DNA of 33,521 nucleotides, taken from positions 1-33,521 of the forward strand of contig JAGHHM010000102.1 of assembly GCA_017887695.1 (NCBI GenBank). Reading direction: 5' to 3'. Origin of the DNA: Oscillospiraceae bacterium (GTDB lineage: Bacteria > Bacillota > Clostridia > Oscillospirales > Oscillospiraceae). Shown piece by piece: positions 2,371 through 33,521 of the stretch; the stretch's first letter is position 1, and every line of letters begins with the position of its first letter. The notes beneath the pieces are model-generated. The model searched no databases. It was not told where the DNA came from and worked only from the letters and a program-made list of their open reading frames with translations. Position numbers and translations under genes: made by a program.

Positions 2371-3753
2371 TCAGCCGACCAGGTTGGCACGCATCTGATC
2401 GCTGGCAGCCTTGACGTTGGCGATCCACTCTTCCTCAGTCAGGGTGCCCTCCACCAGGGAGTTGACGGGATCCAGGAATACCTCGCGGACAGTGCCCAGG
2501 CCGGGAACCGCGGTGTACGCAGCGAAGTTGCCCATAGCAGCCTTGGCGCCGTTGTCATAGATGGAGTAGAACATCACATTGTCACCCTCCAGCATGTCGG
2601 CCACGCCCAGCACAGGCTGGATGGCGCCGCCCTTGGCAAAGATCTCGCAGGCAGTGTCGCTGTACAGGAAGGCCAGGAACTGCTTGGCAGCGTCAATGTT
2701 CTGGGCGCCGGCAGGAATCCAGGCCTGCTCGAACCAGGTGTAGCTGTAACGGTCGCCGCCCTCAGTAGCAGCGGGCAGAGCAGTCATGCCCCACTGGAAG
2801 CCCTCAGCACGGGGAGCCTCAGCCATCTCGCCCACGATCCAGGTGCCGTTGGGCATGAACAGGGCCTTGTTGTCCAGAACCAGCTGCTGGTTCATGGTGA
2901 AGTCCTGATCGTTGGCCTGAGCAGGAGTGATGGGGTTGGTGTAGGAAGCCAGCTTGTTGATGATGTCGAAGCACTGCTGGGCCTCGGGAGTATCCCACAC
3001 GCCCTCAGCGTAAGTGGTGGCCTCATTGAAGAACTCAGGGCCGCCCACAGTGTACATCAGAGCATACAGGAAAGCGTCAAAGTAACCAGTGGTGGGGTAA
3101 GTAAAGAGGGAGATGCCCTCAGCGGCAGCCTTGTCGCCCAGCTCCCACATCTCATCCCAAGTGGTGGGAACGTCCCAACCCTTCTCCTCGAAGAGACCGG
3201 CGTTGTAGAACAGGCCGCAGGGGGAGTAGAACATGGGGGCGAGATAGGTCTTGCCATCGCCATAGGGGTTGGTGAGAGCGGTATCGGTGAAGCCGCCGGC
3301 CAGCTTGTCGGCCACGGTCACATCCTCGCCGGGAACAGTCATGGACAGAACATCGGTGATGTCGGCAATGTTCTTATCCTTGATGAACTGCTCGGTGAGG
3401 CCAGCCTCACGGCCGGTAGCCAGGTGAATGACGTCGGGGTAATCGCCGCCCTGCATGGAAGCGCCGATCACGTCCTCCAGGTTACGCTCCAGAGTGAGCT
3501 CAACCTGAATGCCGGTCTGAGCGGTGAAGGCGTCGCAGACTTCCTGCCACATACCGGGATAAGCTTCCTCGTAAGCGGACTCCAGAGCCGCTACCTTGAT
3601 GGTGGTGGTCTCACCGGCATCGGAACCAGTGTCGCCAGTGTTGCCAGCATTACTACCGTTGCCGGCGTTGTTGGTGCTGTTGTTGCCGCCGCAGGCCACC
3701 AGGGCCAGGGTCATGACAACAGCCAGGACCAATGCTAATCCTTTTTTCATCAT
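2371..3753 (-). CDS. Sugar ABC transporter substrate-binding lipoprotein (extracellular family 1)
   Basis: About 460 residues. The signal peptide MMKKGLALVLAVVMTLALVA is followed by Cys21 (lipobox LVAC), so the protein is exported and lipid-anchored. A Gly/Asn/Ser/Thr-rich spacer of about 30 residues precedes the mature domain (KVAALESAYEEAYPG). It is typical of family-1 sugar-binding proteins, with aromatic-rich segments such as GLFYNAGLFEEKGWDVP and TWDEMWEL. Two adjacent ATGs (3753, 3750) both fit the GGGAGG site; the first is given. It is the first gene of the minus-strand operon and delivers substrate to the two permeases. Specificity for lacto-N-biose/galacto-N-biose is inferred from the downstream phosphorylase. 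Confidence 0.92.
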   Translation of the reverse strand: MMKKGLALVLAVVMTLALVACGGNNSTNNAGNGSNAGNTGDTGSDAGETTTIKVAALESAYEEAYPGMWQEVCDAFTAQTGIQVELTLERNLEDVIGASMQGGDYPDVIHLATGREAGLTEQFIKDKNIADITDVLSMTVPGEDVTVADKLAGGFTDTALTNPYGDGKTYLAPMFYSPCGLFYNAGLFEEKGWDVPTTWDEMWELGDKAAAEGISLFTYPTTGYFDAFLYALMYTVGGPEFFNEATTYAEGVWDTPEAQQCFDIINKLASYTNPITPAQANDQDFTMNQQLVLDNKALFMPNGTWIVGEMAEAPRAEGFQWGMTALPAATEGGDRYSYTWFEQAWIPAGAQNIDAAKQFLAFLYSDTACEIFAKGGAIQPVLGVADMLEGDNVMFYSIYDNGAKAAMGNFAAYTAVPGLGTVREVFLDPVNSLVEGTLTEEEWIANVKAASDQMRANLVG

Positions 3754-3828
3754 GTAATCCTCCCTAAAATGTGTATGTTCAGGCCCGGCATAGTACCAAA
3801 TCCGGCCCAAACCTCGTGGAATGATTTC

Positions 3829-3856
3829 AGTATACTCTTTAAAAACAACATATCAA
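3829..3856 (-). promoter_or_regulatory. Sigma-A-type promoter of the binding-protein/permease/phosphorylase operon
   Basis: On the minus strand, TTGATA (3851-3856) and TATACT (3829-3834) are separated by 16 bases, about 75 bases before the start codon. It lies in the 378-base region between the divergent operon and the regulator genes, where a substrate-responsive AraC protein would be expected to act. Confidence 0.6.
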
Positions 3857-4026
3857 TTCCTTTGTTGCGGCCTTTTTTAGCGATATTGCTCTTTTGTGAT
3901 ATTTGTCCCAAAATATTTTTTCTAAGAAAATCCTTTTTATCATTTCTGTGGTTTTTTCGTCTCTATCTTCCACTTCCTTCCAGATTCACGCCAGACGCTT
4001 TCTGGGAAAGGTGACGGTTTCCTCCA

Positions 4027-4055
4027 TTGCTTACCAGCCCGTTTTCGTTTATAAT
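4027..4055 (+). promoter_or_regulatory. Promoter of the araC-type regulator pair
   Basis: TTGCTT (4027-4032) and a perfect TATAAT (4050-4055) with 17-base spacing, about 77 bases before the first regulator start. The rest of the 3754-4131 region is AT-rich and has no gene that I can support. Confidence 0.6.
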
Positions 4056-4078
4056 GTATATGCTCGATTTGCAACACC

Positions 4079-4094
4079 TTGCAGCATCGTGCAA
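4079..4094. promoter_or_regulatory. Short inverted repeat in the regulator leader, candidate operator
   Basis: TTGCA-N6-TGCAA, with a further TTGCAA at 4069-4074. It lies just downstream of the predicted transcription start, where an autoregulatory site would be placed. Suggestive only. Confidence 0.3.
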
Positions 4095-4131
4095 AATAGT
4101 GAAATTCTGCATCTGGAGAGGAGGGCTGGAC

Positions 4132-4998
4132 ATGCGGAACACCCCTTCGGATGAGCGTACCCCGTCCAAGCCTCAGCAGAGCGCCAAGCTTCTTTACGCC
4201 AATTCTGCCCGCTATGACCCCCACTGGCATTCCATGCCCCACACCCACCCCTGTGCGGAGCTGTTCTTTGTCGTGGGCGGAAAGGGCTCCTTTCACCTGC
4301 AAAATCAGGTGTATCCTGTCACCCAGGGGGATCTGGTAATCGTCAATACAGGCTTTGAACATACGGAAACCAGCGACATGGAGGCCCCCCTGGAATATAT
4401 CGTCCTGGGAGTAGAAGGGCTGGAGGCTTTGTCCGCCCAGCCTGATTCCAGCGGCTGGGCCGCCATCAGTCTCCACGGCCTGGGCACGGATCTCACCCCC
4501 TACCTTCATTCCATCGTCCGGGAAATGGAGCTCCAGGAACCCGGCTTTCAGTCCATCTGCCAAAGTCTCCTGGAAGTGATCCTCACCCTTCTGACCCGTT
4601 ATGCCAACTTTGCCTTTACCCTGGCAGACGGGGATAAAAAATCCAGCCGCGAGTGCGCCATGGTCCGCCGCTATATTGACGCTCACTTCAAGGAGAATCT
4701 CTCTCTGGATGAGCTGGCAGCTCTGGCCCACGTCAACAAGTACTATCTGGTACATACCTTTACCCGGGAATACGGTACCTCCCCCATCAACTACCTCATT
4801 TCCCGCCGGATCCAGGAAAGCCGACGCTTACTGGAATCTACCAATCACTCTCTTTCCCAAATTTCCCACATGCTGGGCTTCTCTTCCCCCAGCTACTTTT
4901 CCCAGGTATTCCGTAAGCAGATGGGAAAAAGCCCTCTGGAATATCGAAAGGATTCCAAGATCCAGCAAGCCAAGGCAGGTGAAAAGATTGGAGTATAA
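4132..4998 (+). CDS. AraC-family transcriptional regulator with cupin sensor domain (first of tandem pair)
   Basis: 288 residues. The N-terminal part has a cupin-like sensing region with HSMPHTHPCAELFFVVGGKG and a GDLVIVNTGFEH block. The C-terminal ~100 residues carry two helix-turn-helix motifs: LSLDELAALAHVNKYYLVHTF, then ISHMLGFSSPSYFSQVFRK ending in GKSPLEYRK, the classic AraC signature. The ATG at 4132 follows GAGGAGG with 7-base spacing; longer readings lack a site. The gene sits divergently from the sugar importer operon and upstream of galE/nahK, so it is the likely activator of one or both arms. Its 3' end overlaps the next regulator by 11 bases. Confidence 0.9.
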   Translation: MRNTPSDERTPSKPQQSAKLLYANSARYDPHWHSMPHTHPCAELFFVVGGKGSFHLQNQVYPVTQGDLVIVNTGFEHTETSDMEAPLEYIVLGVEGLEALSAQPDSSGWAAISLHGLGTDLTPYLHSIVREMELQEPGFQSICQSLLEVILTLLTRYANFAFTLADGDKKSSRECAMVRRYIDAHFKENLSLDELAALAHVNKYYLVHTFTREYGTSPINYLISRRIQESRRLLESTNHSLSQISHMLGFSSPSYFSQVFRKQMGKSPLEYRKDSKIQQAKAGEKIGV

Positions 4999-8116: not shown

Positions 8117-9226
8117 ATGCAGCAGGCTGAACATTTCTTGCAGGACGCCCTGGCCGCCTTTGACTTTGGCGGCGAGATCGTAGGTGCCGTCCGCTACGGC
8201 TCCGGCCACATCAACGACACCTTCTGTGTCCACACTCAGCCCGGCGAGGATCCCTGCCGGCGGTTTATTCTCCAGCGTATCAGCGCCGCCGCTTTCCATC
8301 ATCCTGACCAGGTTATGAGCAACATCGCCGGTGTCACTGCCTATCTGGCCAAGGCCATTGCCGCTGCCGGCGGTGACCCCAGCCGGGAAACCATGACTGT
8401 GGTTCCCACCCGGGACGGTAAGAGCTTCTATACCGACAGCGAGGGCGGCGCCTGGCGTGTCTACCCCTTCATTGAGGGAACCATCTGCCTCCAGGCCGCG
8501 GAGACTCCTGAGCTGTTTGCCGCCTCCGCCCGGATTTTCGGCCGCTTTCAGCGGATGCTTAAGGACTACCCCGCGGATACCCTCTATGAGACCATTCCTC
8601 GCTTCCACGACACCGAGGACCGGCTGGCCAAGCTGAAGGCAGCGGTGGCCGCGGACGCCATGGGCCGGGTGAAGGATGTACAGCCGGAGCTGGAATTTGT
8701 GAAAAAGCGGGAGGCGGACTGTTCTGTGGCTCTCCAGGCCCTGCGGGATGGAAAGCTCCCCCTGCGGGTGACCCACAACGACACCAAGCTCAACAACGTC
8801 CTTATTGGCCGCGAGAGTGGCGAAGGTATTTGCGTCATTGACCTGGACACTGTGATGCCCGGCCTCTCCATCAACGACTTTGGCGACTCCATCCGCTTCG
8901 GAGCCAACCACAGTGCTGAGGATGAGCAGGATCTGTCCAAAGTGAACTTTGATCTTTCTCTGTACGAGGTGTACACCCAGGGCTTTCTGGAGGGCGCCGG
9001 CGGTGCCCTGACCCAAGCGGAGCTGGACTATCTTCCCTGGGGTGCCAAGCTTATGACCCTGGAATGTGGCATTCGCTTCCTCACTGATTATCTGGAGGGC
9101 GACCACTACTTCCGCATCCACCGGGAAGGCCAGAACCTGGATCGCTGCCGGACCCAGTTCAAGCTGGTGGCCGACATGGAGGAGCAGTGGGAAGCCATGA
9201 AGGCCGTGGTGGATAAGTACCGCTGA
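8117..9226 (+). CDS. nahK: N-acetylhexosamine 1-kinase
   Basis: 369 residues of the aminoglycoside-phosphotransferase/choline-kinase fold. It closely resembles Bifidobacterium NahK (LnpB) as I remember that sequence: VRYGSGHINDTF near 26-36, GGAWRVYPFIEGT at 110-122, the catalytic loop RVTHNDTKLNNVL at 217-229 (base Asp222), and the metal-binding VIDLDTVMPG at 240-249, followed by DFGDSIRFGAN. The family phosphorylates GlcNAc or GalNAc at the anomeric carbon with ATP, which prepares the HexNAc released by the phosphorylase for UDP activation. It starts 4 bases after the nucleotidyltransferase stop, with GGAGG upstream. A strong terminator follows. Confidence 0.92.
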   Translation: MQQAEHFLQDALAAFDFGGEIVGAVRYGSGHINDTFCVHTQPGEDPCRRFILQRISAAAFHHPDQVMSNIAGVTAYLAKAIAAAGGDPSRETMTVVPTRDGKSFYTDSEGGAWRVYPFIEGTICLQAAETPELFAASARIFGRFQRMLKDYPADTLYETIPRFHDTEDRLAKLKAAVAADAMGRVKDVQPELEFVKKREADCSVALQALRDGKLPLRVTHNDTKLNNVLIGRESGEGICVIDLDTVMPGLSINDFGDSIRFGANHSAEDEQDLSKVNFDLSLYEVYTQGFLEGAGGALTQAELDYLPWGAKLMTLECGIRFLTDYLEGDHYFRIHREGQNLDRCRTQFKLVADMEEQWEAMKAVVDKYR

Positions 9227-23687: not shown

Positions 23688-23710
23688 GTTTGAAAGGAGG
23701 GAGCTCTGCC

Positions 23711-24931
23711 ATGAGTCGAGTGATTCTGCACTGTGACCTTAACAGCTTTTTTGCCTCGGTGGAGCTTCTCTCCCATCCCGAACTGAAAGAACTGCCGGTG
23801 GCGGTCTGCGGCGATCCCGCCAGCCGCAAGGGCATCATCCTTGCCAAAAACGAGGCCGCCAAGGGCTACGGCGTCAGAACGGCGGAAACCATCTGGCAGG
23901 CCCGGCAAAAATGCCCTGATCTGGTTCTCCTTCCGCCCCATCATGACCGCTACCGGGAATACTCCCATCTGATCAACACGATATATGGTCAGTACACCGA
24001 CCTGGTGGAGCCCTTTGGCATTGACGAAAGCTGGCTGGACATCACCGGCAGCATGCACCTGTTTGGAGGAGATCCCCGGGCCATCGCCGACGGCATCCGG
24101 GAGCGGATTCGCCGGGAACTGGGGCTCACCTTATCGGTGGGCGTCAGTTTTAACAAGGTCTTTGCCAAGCTGGGCAGCGACTACAAAAAGCCCGACGCCA
24201 CCACTGTCATTCCCCCAGAAGGCTGGCAGTCCATTGTCTGGCCCCTGCCCCTGGGCGCCATGCTCTTTGCCGGCCCTGCCGCCCAGCGGATCCTGGGGCA
24301 ATACGGCATCCGCACCATCGGCCAGCTGGCAGCGGCAGACAACGCCCTGTTGGAAAACCTTCTGGGGAAGCTGGGCCGTCAGCTCTGGAGCTGCGCCAAT
24401 GGTCTGGAGGACTCCCCTGTCCGGCCTCAGCACCTCCAAGAGCCGGTAAAAAGCGTAGGCAACAGCTCTACCTTCCCGGAAAACCTCACCTCACGAGAAC
24501 AGATTCGCCGGGGCGCCGCCCTGCTCTGTGACAGCGTGGCTACTCGACTGCGTCAGCAGGGACTCTACTGCCGGGCGGTACAGGTGGGACTGCGGGATCC
24601 CGCTTTCCACAATGTCTCCCGGCAAAAGCATCTGCCTCACAGCACCCACCTGATGCGGGAACTGCTGGACACCGCTATGGAGCTGATCGACCAGATCTGG
24701 CGTGCCCCCTCCCCCGTCCGCCTTATCAGCATTACCGCTCTGGATCTCACAGACCGGTGGGAAACCTATGAACAAGAGGATCTTTTCTCTCCCTCCGCCC
24801 CCATACAGGAACGGCGGCAGGAAAAGTTGGAGCAAGTTATGGACAACATCCGCCGCCGTTACGGCACTAGAGCCATTACCTATGGCGAGACCGCCGGCGA
24901 CGCATTGTCCCTCCATGAAAACGAAGAATGA
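23711..24931 (+). CDS. dinB: DNA polymerase IV (Y-family)
   Basis: 406-residue translesion polymerase. Catalytic Asp9 lies in ILHCDLNSFFASVE with the steric-gate aromatic at 13-14. The second acidic pair is Asp105/Glu106 in FGIDESWLDITGS. LSVGVSFNKVFAKLGSDYKKPD (141-162) is the palm/thumb block, and helix-hairpin-helix and little-finger regions follow. QEDLF at 355-359 fits a beta-clamp-binding pentapeptide. ATG 23711 follows AAAGGAGG. DESWLD replaces the more common DEAYLD/DEAFLD. Transcribed alone; no LexA-type box was recognised. The stop codon lies in the terminator stem. Confidence 0.93.
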   Translation: MSRVILHCDLNSFFASVELLSHPELKELPVAVCGDPASRKGIILAKNEAAKGYGVRTAETIWQARQKCPDLVLLPPHHDRYREYSHLINTIYGQYTDLVEPFGIDESWLDITGSMHLFGGDPRAIADGIRERIRRELGLTLSVGVSFNKVFAKLGSDYKKPDATTVIPPEGWQSIVWPLPLGAMLFAGPAAQRILGQYGIRTIGQLAAADNALLENLLGKLGRQLWSCANGLEDSPVRPQHLQEPVKSVGNSSTFPENLTSREQIRRGAALLCDSVATRLRQQGLYCRAVQVGLRDPAFHNVSRQKHLPHSTHLMRELLDTAMELIDQIWRAPSPVRLISITALDLTDRWETYEQEDLFSPSAPIQERRQEKLEQVMDNIRRRYGTRAITYGETAGDALSLHENEE

Positions 24932-24999: not shown

Positions 25000-25077
25000 T
25001 CAGTCCATTTCCTTGTTGAGCGCTTCCTCCAGCTTGGAAAGGGCCCGTTTCTCAATACGGGATACATAGCATCTCGG
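25000..25077 (-). pseudogene. sigK: 3' end of sporulation sigma factor K gene (region 4.2 remnant)
   Basis: Open frame on the minus strand, 25 codons before the stop at 25000-25002, bounded upstream by an in-frame TAA (25078-25080). It encodes YVSRIEKRALSKLEEALN near its end, the region 4.2 recognition-helix sequence typical of sigma-K (normally preceded by GISRS). The homologous part begins abruptly at Tyr (25068); upstream the DNA is unrelated and leads straight into a serine recombinase gene. The 5' part of sigK is not in the window. This is either one half of a sigK gene interrupted by a skin-type element, restorable by excision, or a dead remnant. SigE/F/G/A tails differ at this motif. 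Confidence 0.72.
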
Positions 25078-25104
25078 TTACTGCAAGTGATTGACTCCGG
25101 AAAA

Positions 25105-25875
25105 TTACGCCGTCTCAAAGGTTGCAACCCCTTGCGGTGTCTGGCTTTTTGCCGTTTCGTTCAGCCGGGCGAATCGGAATTTGATGATGGCTTCCTTGTC
25201 CTCGGTGAGTTCCACCCGCTCGATGAGACTGACCAGCAGTTCCCGGCTCTCTCCAGCGGTTTCGATGAACCTATGCACTAGTTCCCTGGCCCTGTCGTCA
25301 CTGTAAACGGGGCTTTTTTTCTGCAGCTCCAGCTCCTGCCGTTTTTCCTCCAGCAGTTTGCGATCTAGCTTCGTCCGATTGAAGATCCGCTGAAAATCCT
25401 CCTCCGGCAGCAGTCCACTGAGCCGATCCGTATACATCCGGTCCAGGTTGGCGGTAAGACTGTCGATCTTGGACTGGAAGGGCTGGAGTTCCGTTTCCAA
25501 ACTGCTCTGCTTTCTGGCGTTCTCCACAGCCTCGCGGGGCATTGGCAGCAGTTCGTCCGGATTGCGGTAAACCTGGCAGATCTCCCGCACCTTGGCGACC
25601 ACCGCATCGGTCACCGTCTTTTCCTTGATGGAGTGGCAGGTGCAGACGCCCGCTTTTGTGAAGCGCTGGTAGGTGCGGCAGACAAAGTACAGCACATCCT
25701 CTCCCCTGGCGTTTTTTCGATTAAACACCGCTAGTGGGTAGCCGCACTCGTGGCAAAAAATCAATCCCTTCAGCAGAAAGTCGTAGGTCCGGTTCCGACA
25801 AGATAGGGAGGTTGAGAATGTGGCCGATCCAGTCGTCAGACTGAGGCTACTCGTTTCCGGGTATGTCCAACTCAT
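25105..25875 (-). pseudogene. Large serine recombinase, C-terminal part only (zinc ribbon and coiled coil)
   Basis: 256 codons from an ATG with a strong ribosome site (AGAGGAGGGAG, 8-base spacing). From about 25 on it matches the C-terminal DNA-binding part of large serine recombinases: SCRNRTYDFLLKGLIFCHECGYPLAV, zinc-ribbon cysteines near 41, 44, 66 and 78/80, then a coiled coil (about 120-190) and the closing LLVSLIERVELTEDKEAIIKF. The resolvase catalytic domain with its Ser and Arg residues, and the recombinase domain, are missing. The first ~24 residues look unrelated. So an internal or 5' deletion has removed catalysis, although a short protein may still be made. It ends 27 bases before the sigK fragment, same strand. 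Confidence 0.8.
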
Positions 25876-25883
25876 CGATACAT

Positions 25884-25894
25884 CTCCCTCCTCT
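25884..25894 (-). promoter_or_regulatory. Strong ribosome binding site ahead of the truncated recombinase
   Basis: AGAGGAGGGAG on the minus strand, 8 bases before ATG 25875. Its survival suggests that the original start region was kept while the catalytic part was lost. Confidence 0.6.
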
Positions 25895-25942
25895 GACAAT
25901 ACCAAATAAACGCCGCGCGGTTCCAGCAGATTCCGGACATAT

Positions 25943-25974
25943 AAAAACCGCCGTAGGCAGGATACCACGGCGGT
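25943..25974 (-). terminator. Terminator upstream of the recombinase remnant
   Basis: Minus-strand 8-bp stem ACCGCCGT (25967-25974 with 25947-25954), 12-base loop, followed by TTTTTATA. It follows a second terminator at 26021-26059 with no gene between them, so it may be the 3' end of a gene that was deleted. Confidence 0.7.
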
Positions 25975-26127: not shown

Positions 26128-28086
26128 TTATTCGAGTTCGAAGGCACCTGTATACAGCTGATAATACTTGCCCTTCTGGGCAATCAGCTCGTCGTGGCTG
26201 CCGCGCTCGATGATGCGGCCGTGCTCAAGGACGATGATGGCATTGGAGTTCTGGACCGTGGAGAGCCGGTGGGCTATGACGAACACCGTCCGACCGTACA
26301 TCAGCGCGTCCATGCCCTGCTGTACAATGGCCTCGGTACGGGTATCGATGTAGGAGGTGGCCTCATCGAGGATCATAACCGGAGGATCGGCTACAGCGGC
26401 TCGGGCGATGCTCAGCAGCTGCCGCTGCCCCTGGCTCAGGTTGGCGCCGTTGCCGCGGAGCACGGTGTTGTAGCCCTCGGGCAGACGGCGGATGAAGTCA
26501 TCGGCACCGGCCAGCTTGGCCGCCGCGATGCAGTCTTCGTCGCAGGCCTCCAGATTGCCGTAGCGGATGTTCTCCATGACGGTGCCTGTGAAGAGGTTGG
26601 TGTCCTGAAGCACCATACCCAGGGAATGCCGCAGGTCGGCCTTCTTGATCTTGTTGATGTTGATGCCATCGTAGCGGATTTTGCCGTCGTCGCTATCGTA
26701 AACCCGGTTGATAAGGTTGGTGATGGTGGTCTTACCGGCACCAGTGGCTCCTACGAAGGCGATCTTCTGACCGGGCTTGGCGTAGAGGGAGATGTTATGG
26801 AGGACGATCTTTTCCGGCGTGTAGCCGAAGTCCACGTCGAAAAACCGCACGTCGCCGGTCAGCCTGGTGTAGGTGACGGTGCCGTCGTGGTGGGGATGCT
26901 TCCAGGCCCAGACCATGGTGCGCTCGGGGCACTCGGTCAAGGTGCCGTCGGCGTTCTCCTTGGCGTTGACCAGGGTCACGTAGCCATCATCGGTTTCGGG
27001 CTCTTCATCCAGCAGGGAGAAGATCCGGTGGGCGCCGGCCAGACCCATGATGACCATGTTGATCTGGTTGGACACCTGTCCGATGGAGCCGGCGAACTGC
27101 TTGGTCATATTCAGGAACGGCACCACGATGCTGATACTGAAGGCCATGCCGGAGAGGCTGATGTTGGGGGCGCCGGACAGCAGCAGGGCGCCGCCTACCA
27201 GTGCCACGACCACGTACATCACGTTGCCGACATTGCCCAGCAGCGGCATGAGAATATTGGCGAAACGGTTACCATTGCGGGCATTGAAGAAGATTTCGTC
27301 GTTGACTTTGTCAAAGTCGGCCTTGGCGGCTTCCTCGTGGCAGAAGACCTTGATGACCTTCTGGCCGGTCATCATTTCCTCCATGAACGCCTCGGCGTTG
27401 GCCAGCGTGATCTGCTGGCGCAGGAAGTAGGTGGAGGAGCGCTTGGTGATCGCGCGGGCGGCGAAGACCATGCAGATGACGCCGACCACCACTACGAATG
27501 CCAGAATGACGCTGTAGTAGACCATAATGCAGAACACCACGGACAGCGTGATGGCGGAGATGAGAATATTGGGAAGGCTCTGGCTGATAAGCTGGCGCAA
27601 GGTGTCGACATCGTTGGTGTAGTAGCTCATGATGTCGCCGTGGCCATTGGTATCAAAATACCGGATGGGCAGGTCCTGCATATGGTTGAACATCTTCTGA
27701 CGCATCTTTTTCAGGGAGCCCTGGGTGATGATGGCCATCATCTGCGTGTAGAAGGCGCCGGCGATGAGGCTGACCACATACATGGCCACCAGAATTCCTA
27801 CAAGACCGAGAATTTTCCCGGAGATCGCCGACCAGTCGCCGCTCTTGTAGCTTTGGTCTACCAAGGCGATGACCTTCTGGAGAAAGACCGCCGGCAGAGA
27901 GCTGACGAGAGCGTTAATCAGGATGCACACCAGCGTGACCGGCAACAGTACCGGATAGAATTCAAACAGGGTTTTCAGCAGTCTGCGGAGTACGCCCTTG
28001 GGGGCGCGGCGGCCGCGTTTGGTGGTGGTACGGGTCGCAGCAGGGGCGGCGTTTCTCTCTTCTATCGTGTTTTTACGCTTCATCAT
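26128..28086 (-). CDS. Heterodimeric ABC exporter subunit with consensus ATPase site
   Basis: About 652 residues: a basic N-terminal extension (about 1-40), six membrane helices (about 45-340), then a nucleotide-binding domain with Walker A GATGAGKTT (near 446-454), signature LSQGQRQLL, Walker B VMILDEATSYID with the catalytic Glu, and the switch His in FVIAHRLSTVQ. Its site is complete, unlike its partner's. An insertion of ~45 residues (near 362-410, with ECPERTMVWAWKHPHHDG) separates membrane and ATPase domains. The start (28086 or 28083) overlaps the end of the upstream gene, so the two are translationally coupled. Probable drug, lipid or peptide export. Confidence 0.92.
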   Translation of the reverse strand: MMKRKNTIEERNAAPAATRTTTKRGRRAPKGVLRRLLKTLFEFYPVLLPVTLVCILINALVSSLPAVFLQKVIALVDQSYKSGDWSAISGKILGLVGILVAMYVVSLIAGAFYTQMMAIITQGSLKKMRQKMFNHMQDLPIRYFDTNGHGDIMSYYTNDVDTLRQLISQSLPNILISAITLSVVFCIMVYYSVILAFVVVVGVICMVFAARAITKRSSTYFLRQQITLANAEAFMEEMMTGQKVIKVFCHEEAAKADFDKVNDEIFFNARNGNRFANILMPLLGNVGNVMYVVVALVGGALLLSGAPNISLSGMAFSISIVVPFLNMTKQFAGSIGQVSNQINMVIMGLAGAHRIFSLLDEEPETDDGYVTLVNAKENADGTLTECPERTMVWAWKHPHHDGTVTYTRLTGDVRFFDVDFGYTPEKIVLHNISLYAKPGQKIAFVGATGAGKTTITNLINRVYDSDDGKIRYDGININKIKKADLRHSLGMVLQDTNLFTGTVMENIRYGNLEACDEDCIAAAKLAGADDFIRRLPEGYNTVLRGNGANLSQGQRQLLSIARAAVADPPVMILDEATSYIDTRTEAIVQQGMDALMYGRTVFVIAHRLSTVQNSNAIIVLEHGRIIERGSHDELIAQKGKYYQLYTGAFELE

Positions 28087-29827
28087 GATCACCTGCCTTC
28101 GTCTGGGAAGTGTACACTTCGCGGTAAATATCGCTGCTCTTCAAAAGCTCTTCGTGGGTGCCGATGGCACTGATACGGCCGCCGTCCATGACGATGATGC
28201 GGTCGGCGTCCTGAACCGAGGCCACACGCTGGGCAATGATAATTTTGGTGGTATCCGGGATGAACCGGCGGAAGCCCTGGCGGATCAGGGCGTCGGTCCT
28301 GGTGTCCACAGCGGAGGTGGAATCGTCAAGGATCAGAACCTTGGGCTTCTTCAGCAGGGCCCGGGCAATGCAGAGCCGCTGTTTCTGACCGCCGGAGACG
28401 TTGCTGCCGCCCTGCTCAATCCAGGTGTCGTACTTGTCGGGGAACTGCTGGATGAACTCGTCGGCCTGGGCCAAACGGCAGGCCTCATACATCTCCTCGT
28501 CGGTGGCGTTGGGGTTGCCCCAGCGGAGATTGTCCTTGATGGTGCCGGAGAACAGCACATTCTTCTGCAGCACCATGGCCACGCTGTCGCGGAGGGTTTC
28601 CAGGTCATAGTTCCGCACGTCTACGCCGCCGACCCGAACCGTACCCTCTGTCACGTCGTAGAGCCGGGGGATCAGCTGCACCAGGGTAGTCTTGGACGAG
28701 CCCGTACCGCCCAGGATGCCGATGAGTTCACCGGAACGGATGTGGAGATCCACATTCTCCAGAGCATTGCGCTCGGCGGTCTTGGAGTATTTAAAGCTGA
28801 CGCCGTCAAAATCGATGGACCCGTCCTGAATTTCCGTGACCGCATTCTCGGGGTTGGTCAGGCTGCTCTTTTCCTGCAGCACCTCGACGATACGCTCGGC
28901 GGACTCCATAGACATGGTGATCATCACGAACACCATGGAGAGCATCATCAGGCTCATGAGGATCTGGAAGCTGTATGTAAGGATGGCAGACATCTGGCCG
29001 ACGTTGACCTCCATGCCCTGGCTGGAAATGACGGCATAGGAACCAAAGCTCAGGACGAAGACCATGCCGCTGTACACGCAGAACTGCATCATGGGCGTGT
29101 TAATGGCCATGATGCGCTCGGCACGGGTGAAGTCTTTGCAGATGTCCTCGGCGGCAGCGCCGAACTTCTTCTTCTCATAGTCCTCGCGGACGTAGCTCTT
29201 GACCACGCGCATGGCCTGGACGTTCTCCTGCACCGAGTCGTTGAGGGCGTCGTACTTGCGGAACACCCGGCGGAAAATGGGGGTGGCCTTGCGGATCACC
29301 ATAGCCAAACCGAAGCCCAGCAGAGGAATAGTCACCAGGAAGATCATGGCCAGACGGCCGCCCATGGCAAAGCCCATGACGAAGGAGAAGATCAGCATCA
29401 GCGGGCAGCGGATGGCCACACGGATGATCATCATAAAGGACATCTGCACGTTGATGACATCGGTGGTCATCCGGGTCACCAGGCTGGAGACCGAGAACTT
29501 GTCGATGTTTTCAAACGAATAATCCTGAATGCGGTAGAACATATCCTGCCGCAGATTCCGCGAAAAACCCGTGGAGGCTGTGGCGCAGGTGCTGCCGGCC
29601 GCCACGCCCAGAATCAGCGACAGCACGGCCATGACAACCAGCTGCGTGCCGTATTGGATAATGACGTCCATGCCGCAGCCGGCCTGCATCTCGTTGACGA
29701 GATTAGCAATTATAAACGGGATAATGCATTCCAAGACGACTTCGCCCACCACCAGGATCGGTGTGAGGATTGCCGGTTTCTTGAATTCCCGTATGCTTTT
29801 ACTCAGTGTTTTGATCATATCAGTCAT
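28073..29827 (-). CDS. Heterodimeric ABC exporter subunit with degenerate ATPase site
   Basis: 584 residues: six membrane helices (about 18-310) and an ATPase domain with a variant Walker A ILGGTGSSKTT (371-381), signature VSGGQKQRL (477-485), Walker B VLILDDSTSAVD in which Asp502 replaces the catalytic Glu, and Gln533 where the switch His normally stands (IIIAQRVAS). These are the known marks of the non-catalytic half of BmrC/D- and LmrC/D-type heterodimers. ATG 29827 follows AGGAGG with 11-base spacing. It is the middle gene of the marR-ABC-ABC operon and overlaps the next gene by 14 bases. Confidence 0.92.
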   Translation of the reverse strand: MTDMIKTLSKSIREFKKPAILTPILVVGEVVLECIIPFIIANLVNEMQAGCGMDVIIQYGTQLVVMAVLSLILGVAAGSTCATASTGFSRNLRQDMFYRIQDYSFENIDKFSVSSLVTRMTTDVINVQMSFMMIIRVAIRCPLMLIFSFVMGFAMGGRLAMIFLVTIPLLGFGLAMVIRKATPIFRRVFRKYDALNDSVQENVQAMRVVKSYVREDYEKKKFGAAAEDICKDFTRAERIMAINTPMMQFCVYSGMVFVLSFGSYAVISSQGMEVNVGQMSAILTYSFQILMSLMMLSMVFVMITMSMESAERIVEVLQEKSSLTNPENAVTEIQDGSIDFDGVSFKYSKTAERNALENVDLHIRSGELIGILGGTGSSKTTLVQLIPRLYDVTEGTVRVGGVDVRNYDLETLRDSVAMVLQKNVLFSGTIKDNLRWGNPNATDEEMYEACRLAQADEFIQQFPDKYDTWIEQGGSNVSGGQKQRLCIARALLKKPKVLILDDSTSAVDTRTDALIRQGFRRFIPDTTKIIIAQRVASVQDADRIIVMDGGRISAIGTHEELLKSSDIYREVYTSQTKAGDHDEA

Positions 29828-29946: not shown

Positions 29947-30486
29947 TTAACGAAAATCCGGAGATTGACAACCGCGATCTTCGCGTTCTCTCTCCGTCTC
30001 ATCAACGAACCGTGGAAACTGGTCCGCCGACTGCGGCGCGCCGTTGGAAGCGCTGAGATTTTGAATCATCCGATCCAGAAAGCTTTGGAGCTGGATGATT
30101 TCCGCGCGGGACATATCGCTGACCAGCCGCTGCTCCGATGCGGCCAGCTGATCGAGGACCTGCTGGTTGGCTTCCAGTGCCCGCTTTGTGACGAGGATCT
30201 GCTTGCACCGCCGGTCCTCCGTGGATGGTTCGCTGCTCAGATAGCCCTTCGCCTCCAACCGCTGCAGCAGCCCCGATACCGTGGGATGGGTAAAGCGGAA
30301 ATGCCGTTCAATGTCCCGCGGATAGACCGTCTCCTGCCGTTGGGTTCGGTAGCACAGGTAGCCAAGCACACGGGCCTGCGAGCTGGTCAGGTCCAGGGAC
30401 GTGATGCTGTTATTCATGTTCTGTGTCAGCAGCTTGGAAATGATTTTGATCTTGAATCCCAGGTCATATCTGCCGACCGGTGACAT
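29947..30486 (-). CDS. MarR-family transcriptional regulator of the ABC exporter operon
   Basis: 179 residues with the winged-helix core: LTSSQARVLGYLCYR, then VYPRDIERHFRFTHPTVSGLLQRLEAKGYLSSEPSTEDRRCKQILVT (recognition helix and wing with the DxRxK motif), flanked by dimerisation helices. ATG 30486 is chosen over the in-frame GTG at 30495, because AAAGGAGG ends 8 bases before the ATG. First gene of the operon. The usual mode is ligand-relieved repression, and repeats over its own promoter fit autorepression of the whole operon. The ~30-residue tail is charged (VDETEREREDRG). Confidence 0.9.
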   Translation of the reverse strand: MSPVGRYDLGFKIKIISKLLTQNMNNSITSLDLTSSQARVLGYLCYRTQRQETVYPRDIERHFRFTHPTVSGLLQRLEAKGYLSSEPSTEDRRCKQILVTKRALEANQQVLDQLAASEQRLVSDMSRAEIIQLQSFLDRMIQNLSASNGAPQSADQFPRFVDETEREREDRGCQSPDFR

Positions 30487-30521
30487 GGATGCCACCTCCT
30501 TTTATATAAATTAGTAGCACA

Positions 30522-30720: not shown

Positions 30721-31200
30721 CTATTCTGCAAGCTTCGTAAGTGTATCGCCGGCAATGCGATACACGGTCCAATCCGACATTGGCTCCGCACCAAGTGATA
30801 GATAAAAATCAATACTGGGTCTATTCCAGTCCAGGCACCACCATTCCAATCGTCCGCATTTTCGCTCCACGGCAATGGATGCCAACTTTTTCAATATAGC
30901 TTTTCCATATCCATTTCCACGGTACTCCTGCTTTACATATAGATCTTCAAGGTAGATCCCCGCTCTGCCAAGGAAAGTAGAAAAGTTATGAAAGAAAAGA
31001 GCAAACCCAATTTCCTTTCCATCTACAATTGCAAAAATAACCTCTGCCTTCTGCTTATCAAAAATCCATTCTTCCAGTGTCGATTCATCAGCAACAACCT
31101 CATGTAACATCTTTTCGTAATCTGCAAGTTCTTTTATAAATTGCAGGATCAGATGCGTATCTTTTCGCTCTGCATATCGAAATGTAAGTTCTTTCTCCAT
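30721..31200 (-). CDS. GNAT family N-acetyltransferase (diamine/spermidine acetyltransferase-like)
   Basis: 159 residues, one GNAT domain. The acetyl-CoA loop reads VKQEYRGNGYGKAILKKLASIA (about 92-113). LEDLYV before it and CGRLEWWCLDWNRPSIDFYLSLGAEP after it fit the SSAT-like branch, whose members acetylate polyamines or similar small amines. ATG 31200 follows GGAGGG with 8-base spacing. Codon use and base composition are clearly more AT-rich than in the left part of the window, which suggests transfer. Single gene; substrate unproven. Confidence 0.87.
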   Translation of the reverse strand: MEKELTFRYAERKDTHLILQFIKELADYEKMLHEVVADESTLEEWIFDKQKAEVIFAIVDGKEIGFALFFHNFSTFLGRAGIYLEDLYVKQEYRGNGYGKAILKKLASIAVERKCGRLEWWCLDWNRPSIDFYLSLGAEPMSDWTVYRIAGDTLTKLAE

Positions 31201-31523
31201 TTTAATAACCCTCCATCTTTTTCTTTCTATACTTGCTGACAGTAAATTCACAGAAGATAACTTCATAAACAACGGGAGATGGCATAACCGCCTTACTGGA
31301 ACAAAGTTGTGAAAGCACTTTGTTTGCTGGATTTCCAGCTGAAAGATGGGATAAATTCTACCACACTACTGTGGACAATTCCACCTTTGGTTCTGCGAAA
31401 TACAAGGCAGTGTCATATCATTTCCCATCCACACCAGCACCCTATGTGGATCAGGCACTGCTGTTTTAAAAGCACTGTTCGCAATTGTAATTTGTTATGC
31501 CAATACATTGGCACCAATTTTAT
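31201..31523. other. Intergenic stretch without a supported gene
   Basis: AT-rich DNA between the acetyltransferase and TspO-like genes. I see only a short dyad CCACA-CTAC-TGTGG (31361-31374) and an unsupported plus-strand frame (31309-31542) with no ribosome site and no recognisable protein. Confidence 0.5.
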
Positions 31524-31576
31524 AAAGCACAGAGGATCGTAGCATGGCAAGACCATGCTACGATCCTCTGTGCTTT
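31524..31576. terminator. Perfect 24-bp hairpin next to the TspO-like gene
   Basis: Left arm 31524-31547, loop CAAGA, right arm 31553-31576, with no mismatch. It begins with AAAGCACAGAGG. On the minus strand it is followed by TTTATAAAATT and so may terminate the TspO-like gene. The stem is much longer than any other terminator in the window; an origin as a small inverted-repeat element is possible. Confidence 0.6.
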
Positions 31577-31646: not shown

Positions 31647-32024
31647 TCACCGATTGAGCATCCATACGCCAAAATTCAGGTAAGCCGCAAAGGTCACCCA
31701 CAGGACATACGGTATCTGTAACCACGCAGCCAGCCGATCCACCTTACGGAAAGTGAAAATCATCCATAGAATTAGCATCCGCAGCGCCCGGGTGCGGTCA
31801 GGTGACGCCGGTGCCCCATAGATTCTGGCGGCGCTGACCCCCATGAGCAGAAACAGTATGCCCCAGACAATGGGAAATACGATAGCCGGCGGCGAGAGAG
31901 GCGGCTGCCGGATCGTTTCACTGTAACTCTCCGCACCATCCCGGGTGAGAAAGCCGGAAAGTGCCCCCACTGCCTCCACGCCCACAATCCAGAGCGCATA
32001 TGTTTTCCATGAAGGTTTTTTCAT
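31647..32024 (-). CDS. TspO/MBR-related membrane protein, internally shortened
   Basis: 125 residues; family members usually have about 150-165 and five helices. The N-terminal part (helices 1 and 2: ALWIVGVEAVGALSGFL, PPAIVFPIVWGILFLLMGVSAARIY) and the C-terminal part (ILWMIFTFRKVDRLAAWLQIPYVLWVTFAAYLNFGVWMLNR) are normal. Between RALRM and LILWM the third helix, with the family's NFxWS-type block, is missing without breaking the frame. TspO proteins bind porphyrins and sterol-like ligands; this one may be inactive or altered. ATG 32024 follows GGGGGGA. Confidence 0.82.
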   Translation of the reverse strand: MKKPSWKTYALWIVGVEAVGALSGFLTRDGAESYSETIRQPPLSPPAIVFPIVWGILFLLMGVSAARIYGAPASPDRTRALRMLILWMIFTFRKVDRLAAWLQIPYVLWVTFAAYLNFGVWMLNR

Positions 32025-32149
32025 ACACCATCCCCCCAAACAGCCTATGCATCTCACTCTGCGTCTATACGCCAGGAGCAGCTTTCCCAGGCATACTTTC
32101 TCCCTTTTCGACCACACTATAACCAAGCGTATGTTTTGGGAGGAATCAC

Positions 32150-33448
32150 ATGAAATCACTATGGGAACAAACCTGGGCTCATCCAAACTTTGGGCGGCTC
32201 GAGAGAGACGAGACCACAGGTGTTCTGATCATTGGCGGCGGCATGGCAGGCGTCCTGCGCGCCTACTTTCTGCAGCAGGCCGGAATACCCTATGTGCTGG
32301 CAGAAGAAAAAACGATTTGCAGCGGCATTACCAAAAATACCACCGCCAAGCTGACCAGTCAGCACGGACTCATCTATCACAAACTCATCCAAACCTTTGG
32401 CGTTGACCGGGCACAGCAGTATCTTTCCGCCAACGAAGCAGCCCTTCAGAAATACCGGGAATTGTGCCGTCATATCGACTGTGATTTTGAAGAAAAGTCC
32501 GCCTATGTCTATGCCCTGCACGACAAGCGGAAACTCGAACAGGAACTGGCCGCCTTAGAAAAATTACATTTTTGCGCGGAGTTTGTCGAACATCTGCCGC
32601 TCCCCTTCTCCATAGCAGGTGCCGTTAAATTTCCGAATCAGGCGCAATTTCATCCCCTGAAATTTGTCTCCGCAATTTCAAAGGATCTGCACATCTATGA
32701 GCACACTCCTGTACGAGAACTGATTGGAACTACCGCCGTGGCAGATCGCGGAAGAATTCGGGCAAAGAAGATCATTGTAACCACCCACTTTCCTTTTCTC
32801 AACAAGCGCGGCAGCTATTTTTTGAAGCTATATCAGCGTCGTTCCTATGTCATTGCTTTGGAACACGCCGCAAATGTAGACGGTATGTATATCGATGAAG
32901 CGGAGGATGGTCTCTCCTTCCGTAACCACGGAAATCTCCTGCTGGTGGGCGGGGGTGGCCACCGCACCGGAAAGCAGGGCGGCGGATGGCATGAACTGCG
33001 GAACTTTGCCGCAAAGCATCATCCGCAAGCCGTAGAGAAGTACCTTTGGGCCACGCAGGACTGTATGAGTCTGGATGGAGCGCCTTATATCGGTCCTTAC
33101 TCTACCTCCACCTCAGGTTTGTACGTGGCCACTGGATTTAATAAGTGGGGGATGACTTCCTCCATGGTGTCCGCTATGATTTTAAGCGATCTCGTTCAAG
33201 AAAAGGAGCATCCCTTTGCAGAAGTATTCTCTCCTTCCCGCTCAATATTCCGCCCCCAACTGGTTGCCAACGGTTGGGAAGCCATGGTCAGTATGCTGAC
33301 ACCCACAACAAGGCGCTGCCCCCATCTGGGCTGCGCGCTGAAATGGAATTCCCAGGAACACACCTGGGACTGCCCCTGTCACGGTTCCCGCTTTGAGGAG
33401 GGCGGCAAACGCATCGACGGTCCCACCACTGGTGATCTGAAGCTGTAA
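32150..33448 (+). CDS. FAD-dependent oxidoreductase with C-terminal Rieske [2Fe-2S] domain
   Basis: 432 residues (usual family length about 500). The N-terminal DAO-type FAD domain has VLIIGGGMAGVLRAYFLQQAG (25-45), KNTTAKLTSQHGLIYH, GLYVATGFNKWGMTSSMVSAM and the GAPYIGPYS turn. The C-terminal Rieske domain has CPHLGC and DCPCHGSRF, giving cluster ligands Cys390, His392, Cys408 and His411. After GDLKL the protein ends early compared with relatives. It is expected to pass electrons between a small organic substrate and the cluster; the substrate is unknown. ATG 32150 follows GGGAGG. Divergent from the TspO-like gene. Confidence 0.9.
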   Translation: MKSLWEQTWAHPNFGRLERDETTGVLIIGGGMAGVLRAYFLQQAGIPYVLAEEKTICSGITKNTTAKLTSQHGLIYHKLIQTFGVDRAQQYLSANEAALQKYRELCRHIDCDFEEKSAYVYALHDKRKLEQELAALEKLHFCAEFVEHLPLPFSIAGAVKFPNQAQFHPLKFVSAISKDLHIYEHTPVRELIGTTAVADRGRIRAKKIIVTTHFPFLNKRGSYFLKLYQRRSYVIALEHAANVDGMYIDEAEDGLSFRNHGNLLLVGGGGHRTGKQGGGWHELRNFAAKHHPQAVEKYLWATQDCMSLDGAPYIGPYSTSTSGLYVATGFNKWGMTSSMVSAMILSDLVQEKEHPFAEVFSPSRSIFRPQLVANGWEAMVSMLTPTTRRCPHLGCALKWNSQEHTWDCPCHGSRFEEGGKRIDGPTTGDLKL

Positions 33449-33473
33449 GATGACCGCAGTATAGTTCAAATAA

Positions 33474-33517
33474 AATTTCCCGTTTATGTGCTGTAATTTG
33501 CACATAAACGGGAAATT
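33474..33517. terminator. Perfect 18-bp hairpin after the Rieske oxidoreductase gene
   Basis: Left arm 33474-33491, 8-base loop, right arm 33500-33517. AT-rich ends and position suggest a bidirectional terminator. The window ends 4 bases later, so the stem could extend no further into visible sequence. Confidence 0.75.
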
Positions 33518-33521
33518 CAAA

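Follow-up and report, generated by a model that had tools for sequence, protein, structure and literature searches.

The closest described counterparts of the locus studied here are the skin elements of Bacillus subtilis (SpoIVCA, Skr) and Clostridioides difficile (CD1231, CD1234), which lie inside sigK and carry their own large serine recombinase. According to excerpts of the respective papers, skr and the 5′ end of spoIVCA overlap in B. subtilis (PMC6957869), the skin element was regarded in 2016 as “an exception in clostridia,” although cases in C. tetani, C. botulinum, and C. perfringens are also named (PMC5025042), and elements intervening in sigK occur among spore formers (PMC5595907). 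A phage integrated in sigK has been described for Alicyclobacillus (excerpt of PMC13141910). The gin element of B. cereus is a non-prophage intervening element with several serine recombinases in another mother-cell sporulation gene, gerE, and its authors compare it with composite SCC cassettes (excerpt of PMC5595907). The locus described here resembles gin in the former respects but differs from its single element in gerE, as here two elements in tandem interrupt sigK, which is also cut at a second site.

The window, i.e., the whole stretch of 33,521 bases analysed, is an entire contig (C156) of the genome (G000) of a gut bacterium, a bin of 2.43 Mb in 201 contigs that is 92.9% complete. Positions 25071-25000 of its minus strand encode YVSRIEKRALSKLEEALNKEMD followed by a stop codon. 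A Pfam scan of this 23-residue sigK peptide returned nothing, the piece being so short; two NCBIfam models matched, both of them for SigK, i.e., NF004471 (E 4e-4) and TIGR02846 (E 0.004), the latter over profile positions 210-226 at the C-terminal end of the model. In the adjoining frame the recombinase zinc ribbon is the sole Pfam family over its cut-off. The preliminary description of this DNA had recognized a sigK 3′ fragment joined to the remnant of a serine recombinase, and both the profile search for sigma similarity and the domain content bear this out: the feature is confirmed as the 3′ end of sigK, split off in region 4.2 by a skin-type serine-recombinase element. The two are indeed neighbours on the same strand, but their spacing, previously put at 27 bases, amounts to ca. 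36 bases between the stop codon of the recombinase (25105-25107) and the Tyr codon (25066-25068).

The recombinase frame aligns with residues 217-518 of a 525-aa relative in the same genome (recombinase A; 55% identity) and consequently lacks the Resolvase domain, which occupies residues 13-163 of recombinase A; the absence of a catalytic domain had been noted before. An intact recombinase of 539 aa, read across a 77-base contig overlap, ends beside the sigK 3′ piece of a congener (G015); over 462 bases its DNA has 85% identity to that of the remnant. Since this orthologue is intact, the truncation appears to have taken place on the lineage of the window. The remnant is presumed to have lost its function, as judged from the missing domain only; compared with the G015 recombinase its dN/dS is 0.14, with no stop codon in 209 compared codons, and the corresponding ratio for recombinase A is 0.066.

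We infer that the array runs on from window position 33521 into contig C38 (L017), because window 33395-33521 is an exact 127-base match to C38:1-127; elsewhere in the genome only self-complementary matches of 44 bases occur, inside those same overlap stretches. The join is thus based on this overlap and on synteny. An overlap of this 127-base type marks a branch in the assembly, which speaks against the array as reconstructed; however, cargo of the window's element also lies beside sigK in two congeners (G014 and G015; see below), which provides independent support for the join. No exact end overlap with C38 was found for C157, C65, or C25, and no other copy of the right end of C38 was found in the genome. 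On C38, 11 kb further, lies the sigK part ending in GISRS that had been predicted on the minus strand to the right of the window, and an NCBIfam scan scores this middle piece highest as SigK. Joined in silico at GT, the middle and 3′ pieces form a single frame of 171 aa (the 5′ third of the gene being unavailable) that aligns without a gap, at 90.6% identity, with the intact sigK of congener G013 (residues 60-230). Because the 23-residue peptide continues the GISRSYV end in frame, the fragment is more than a chance resemblance. A 67-aa query for the sigK 5′ piece, at E values up to 1, did not recover it from the G000 assembly; its only two matches were to SigE (C151) and to a further sigma factor (C125). 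Two candidates from the same genome were rejected: C151, the strongest TIGR02846 match, as an intact sigK, since it scores as SigE above its own cut-off, and C169 as the 5′ piece, since by eye it is an RpoD-like frame at a contig end.

Table 1. Features of the split sigK locus (window positions, or positions on contig C38) and the sites at which sigK is split in the genus.
Feature	Position	Strand	Remarks
dinB-type DNA polymerase (IMS domains)	23708..24931	+	Chromosomal neighbour of sigK, outside element
sigK 3′ piece (Val-Ser-Arg-Ile-Glu-Lys... to stop)	25000..25065	-	Host side of attR
attR, outer end of array	25040..25107	-	Element arm left, GT core 25064-25065, sigK right
Truncated large serine recombinase, element B	25105..25968	-	Resolvase domain lost
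ABC transporter (membrane + ATPase), cargo B	26128..28092	-
ABC transporter partner, cargo B	28073..29827	-	Next to sigK in G015 at 97% identity (first 148 residues)
MarR-type regulator, cargo B	29947..30495	-	88% identical in G015
GNAT acetyltransferase, cargo B	30721..31272	-
TspO/MBR family protein, cargo B	31647..32186	-
FAD oxidoreductase with Rieske domain, cargo B	32150..33448	+	93% identical next to sigK attL in G014
attM, inner junction	GT at C38:364-365		Element on both sides
Recombinase A, 525 aa, intact	C38:7457-9034	-	Resolvase, Recombinase, zinc ribbon
attL	GT at C38:11036-11037		sigK left, element right
sigK middle piece	C38:11490-11029	-	Ends GISRSYV, then stop
Second recombinase	C38:12899-11433	-	Fused to start of sigK middle piece
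Site 1	ca. codon 65		G000, G001, G004, G009, G011, G019, G024
Site 2	ca. codon 112		G005, G016, G021, G022
Site 3 (site of this window)	ca. codon 210		G000, G001, G008, G009, G010, G011, G014, G015, G018, G019, G021, G022

On the sigK sense strand (minus) three junctions have TAT-GT-AT in common, with GT as the crossover core, which at attR lies at 25064-25065. The inner junction at C38:358-407 is 88% identical to attR over 50 bases; attM and attR have 38 of 45 bases in common in their left arms, and attL and attM 20 of 24 in their right arms, against 8 of 24 in the cross comparisons. From this comparison of arms the array is read as attL, element A (10.7 kb), attM, element B (8.7 kb), attR, i.e., two related elements arranged head-to-tail. 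An element between sigK and element B was seen only in G000. The reconstructed attP sites are imperfect inverted repeats centred on GT in all eight cases, with 14 of 25 positions paired in A, 14 in B, 18 in G011, 19 in G014, 17 in G015, 20 in G021, 22 in G022, and 16 in L129; for each of the eight sites, 2000 shuffles all stayed below the observed value. The inner junction attM is attP-like and should act as an attP, because both of its arms are element arms. The succession of attL, element, attP-like junction, element, and attR is also that of tandem dilysogens of phage lambda; unlike these, the present array involves a serine recombinase and two unlike non-phage elements. The explanation that we favour, and consider likely, is that the window holds the attR end of a composite skin-type insertion, in which two cargo elements occupy one attB in the region 4.2 codons of sigK. 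The locus would then be a two-element composite with recognizable outer att sites and not the decayed or partial element that was first supposed. All data come from metagenome bins, however, and mixing of strains is possible.

Besides its recombinase, element A encodes a PF00144 serine-hydrolase/beta-lactamase-family protein (for which we make no claim of resistance), an SLH protein, and a protein of 1565 aa with M60-peptidase, fn3, and dockerin domains. A comparison of ten proteins of A and B with PHROGs labelled the recombinase as integrase, the ABC transporters as “moron,” the SLH protein as “major tail protein” and “endolysin,” and the PF00144 protein as “minor tail protein.” We read these labels as shared domains, so that these ten proteins do not amount to the prophage-like gene content of skin in B. 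subtilis and C. difficile. The array is nevertheless like skin in that it is inserted within the coding sequence of sigK, in its short common core, in the in-frame gene (in silico, and without the 5′ third) that results from joining the ends, and in a large serine recombinase with its catalytic domain on element A, which element B alone lacks. A small ORF is placed like Skr: just upstream of the recombinase, a short, similar-looking ORF without a Pfam match was seen by eye at 12 of 14 loci, and it is a candidate directionality factor because skr overlaps the 5′ end of spoIVCA. The array differs from skin in its two different elements in tandem, in its position close to the 3′ terminus of sigK (codon 210), in the second cut site, and in that no phage structural module was recognized in A or B. 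It apparently acts like skin, in a composite, multi-site, and non-prophage form. With the staphylococcal SCC cassettes (CcrA/B/C) it shares the stacking of related elements at one site, and recombinase A is weakly similar to CcrC and CcrB, but its scores lie far under the curated cut-offs (129.7 bits against 900 for CcrC, 117.7 against 900 for CcrB, and 73.6 against 700 for CcrA) and the insertion lies within a developmental gene. Relatives of recombinase A were present in 806 phage records, all at <60% identity. The viral contigs yielded 53 loci, and no attP of a free circle was found in the four of at least 69% identity that were checked with a few core patterns. In one viral contig (L281) a sigK 3′ end lies behind its recombinase.

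Element B seems to be a coherent element, as suggested by the surroundings of sigK in G014 and G015, where a conserved element end directly follows sigK residues 1-213. In G014 the next gene, as far as the contig end, is the FAD oxidoreductase; in G015 a broken piece of this gene is followed by the MarR regulator and the ABC transporter partner up to the contig end, in the order of the window and without TspO and GNAT between those genes. A dinB homologue adjoins sigK in eight other genomes of the genus. Within element B, a 53-base stretch (window 31524-31576) is ca. 91% identical to its own reverse complement.

The split sigK is under strong purifying selection: compared with the intact gene of G013 it has a dN of 0.050 and a dS of 0.98 (ratio 0.051), and compared with that of G020 a ratio of 0.052, while the two intact genes give 0.074. 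Either sigK has been kept functional though split, or it was split only lately, and the recurrence of the split in many species favours the former. A gene kept functional while split implies regular rejoining and, given the purifying selection, recombinase A probably excises both elements, although such selection reflects the past and would lag behind a recent loss. That mobile elements have disrupted sigK, sporulation has been lost, and the fragments are now decaying would fit with the recombinase beside the fragment being without its catalytic domain, with the missing 5′ piece, and with the four of 25 genus genomes that show no sigK. It seems, however, rather improbable to us, as both sigK pieces have open frames, the joined gene has a ratio (0.05) like or below that of the intact pair, recombinase A is intact, Spo0A and SigE are both present in G000, and split alleles recur in many genomes. 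Three ways out had been proposed for the truncated recombinase. Excision by another enzyme fits best, since recombinase A, an intact relative of the remnant, lies in the tandem element on C38. A second, intact sigK was not found by a TIGR02846 search of this assembly, a 93%-complete bin, and loss of sporulation is disfavoured by the open frames and the low dN/dS.

Serine integrases recombine attL with attR in the presence of a directionality factor and attP with attB in its absence. With an attP-like attM, elements A and B are thus predicted to leave together. In sporulating cells recombinase A, perhaps with the small upstream protein as directionality factor, would recombine attL with attR, upon which A and B would leave as one circle of 19.4 kb and this part of sigK would be rebuilt in frame, element B being served in trans by recombinase A. 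The second recombinase would remove the other element near codon 65, so that a working sigma-K gene would need two excisions, and spores would receive the chromosome in its unrearranged form provided that only the mother cell carries out the excision, as in the known cases. Simple mobile islands with sigK as their site of integration, excised at low frequency at any time without control by sporulation, would account for cargo that is, by family names, not specific for sporulation (transporters, S-layer, peptidase, MarR, oxidoreductase), and the yin element of C. botulinum was found excised at all time points (excerpt of PMC10747680). The constraint on the split sigK and the recurrence of split alleles suggest regular rejoining instead, and for B. 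subtilis and C. difficile a tie between excision and the mother cell has been described (excerpts of PMC6957869 and PMC5025042), which makes such islands an unlikely explanation, though less so than a decaying remnant.

Beyond the split recognized in the preliminary description, an unrelated recombinase element appears to cut the sigK of G000 again upstream, near codon 65; the second recombinase is only about 25% identical to recombinase A. In G011 a single contig (C64) carries residues 1-67 as the 5′ piece, an element of ca. 5 kb at site 1, and a middle piece ending at site 3, and its site-1 recombinase is 83% identical to the second recombinase of G000. The immediate neighbour of the site-1 recombinase is the middle piece in G000, but the 5′ piece in G009, G011, and G019, and the site-1 element thus seems to be reversed in G000. 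The same recombinase-side arm occurs at C38 11433-11490 and G011:C64 (L057) 8303-8308.

In the genus sample (25 genomes) sigK is split in 16 genomes, in seven of them at two sites, and intact in four (G002, G013, G020, G023), G002 being counted as intact on the basis of an intact copy besides a contig-edge fragment; no sigK was found in G003, G006, G012, and G017, and G007, in which sigK starts at residue 111 at a contig edge, was left out of the split count. For G001, G009, and G019 we infer the double split from two end pieces, as the middle piece was not found, and in several other genomes only one piece was found, so more cuts may be missed. In each of the ten other genus genomes with a separated sigK 3′ piece, a relative of recombinase A lies upstream of that piece, within 100 bases of the alignment end in nine of these and at ca. 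1 kb in G021. Contigs of different strains, brought together by assembly or binning, could in principle make sigK look split, as the metagenome bins comprise as many as hundreds of contigs, the array extends over two contigs, and some pieces end at contig edges (G007 in the genus; G115, G127, and G132 in the family sample). We consider such an artefact very improbable, since the middle piece is bounded on both sides by junctions within single contigs in four genomes (G000:C38, G011:C64, G021:C77, G022:C92), separate genomes agree in the positions and arms of the junctions, and the element of locus L129 is complete on one contig.

At the family level, 111 of 150 genomes at least 85% complete had a sigK match, and 100 of the 109 beyond G000 and G005 were analysed; genomes without a sigK match were omitted, so that the rates are biased by a sample chosen on this match. 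All 100 loci score better as sigK than as SigE; 69 are intact, 28 (out of 97 assessable) are split, and three lie at contig edges. The three sites therefore also recur outside the genus, in other genera of the family. Nine splits are at site 1, 15 at site 2, which we take to be the B. subtilis skin site, and six at site 3, with G092 and G040 in both of the latter counts; the site-2 calls for G076, G144, and G046 are deduced from an alignment that starts in unlike sequence before the junction. Among the best 80 of 505 confirmed sigK matches, which come mostly from uncultured Oscillospiraceae or Clostridia bins, 11 loci end at site 3, some of them in genomes already counted.

It is conceivable, although we put this forward tentatively and hold it to be somewhat doubtful, that sigK in this family is a modular “DNA-intron” gene, in which distinct recombinase elements would occupy three fixed att sites, alone or paired, with stacked cargo and decayed neighbours served in trans, sigma-K would be gated by two independent excisions, and the islands would be kept because only the terminal mother cell excises them. 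In titles and the beginnings of abstracts of the open-licence PMC literature we found neither a two-site split of sigK nor elements in tandem within this gene reported. Surveys of gene presence may score a split sigK as absent or truncated and so misjudge sporulation. A sigK split at two sites offers a natural test of ordered or gated excision and of the persistence of such elements, and the recombinase/att pairs could serve as tools.

Some further loci deserve mention. The complete site-3 element of L129 (1085-5103; ca. 4 kb), in a bin labelled Oscillibacter sp., has both sigK sides on its contig and carries a recombinase and a methyl-accepting chemotaxis protein. In L063 (G022:C92, 4-4467) three recombinase relatives stand in a row on the same strand, from the contig edge to the site-2 junction, reminiscent of the three recombinases of gin. 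In L126 (94-951), from a bin labelled Papillibacter sp., an apparently uninterrupted sigK has upstream of it a recombinase with 82% identity to the site-1 enzyme. A given type of recombinase may not belong strictly to one site, as an IMG/VR contig (L282) holds a sigK piece from site 2 (12-173) and, 3 kb away, the start of a recombinase (3370-4458) that is 83% identical to the site-3 enzyme.
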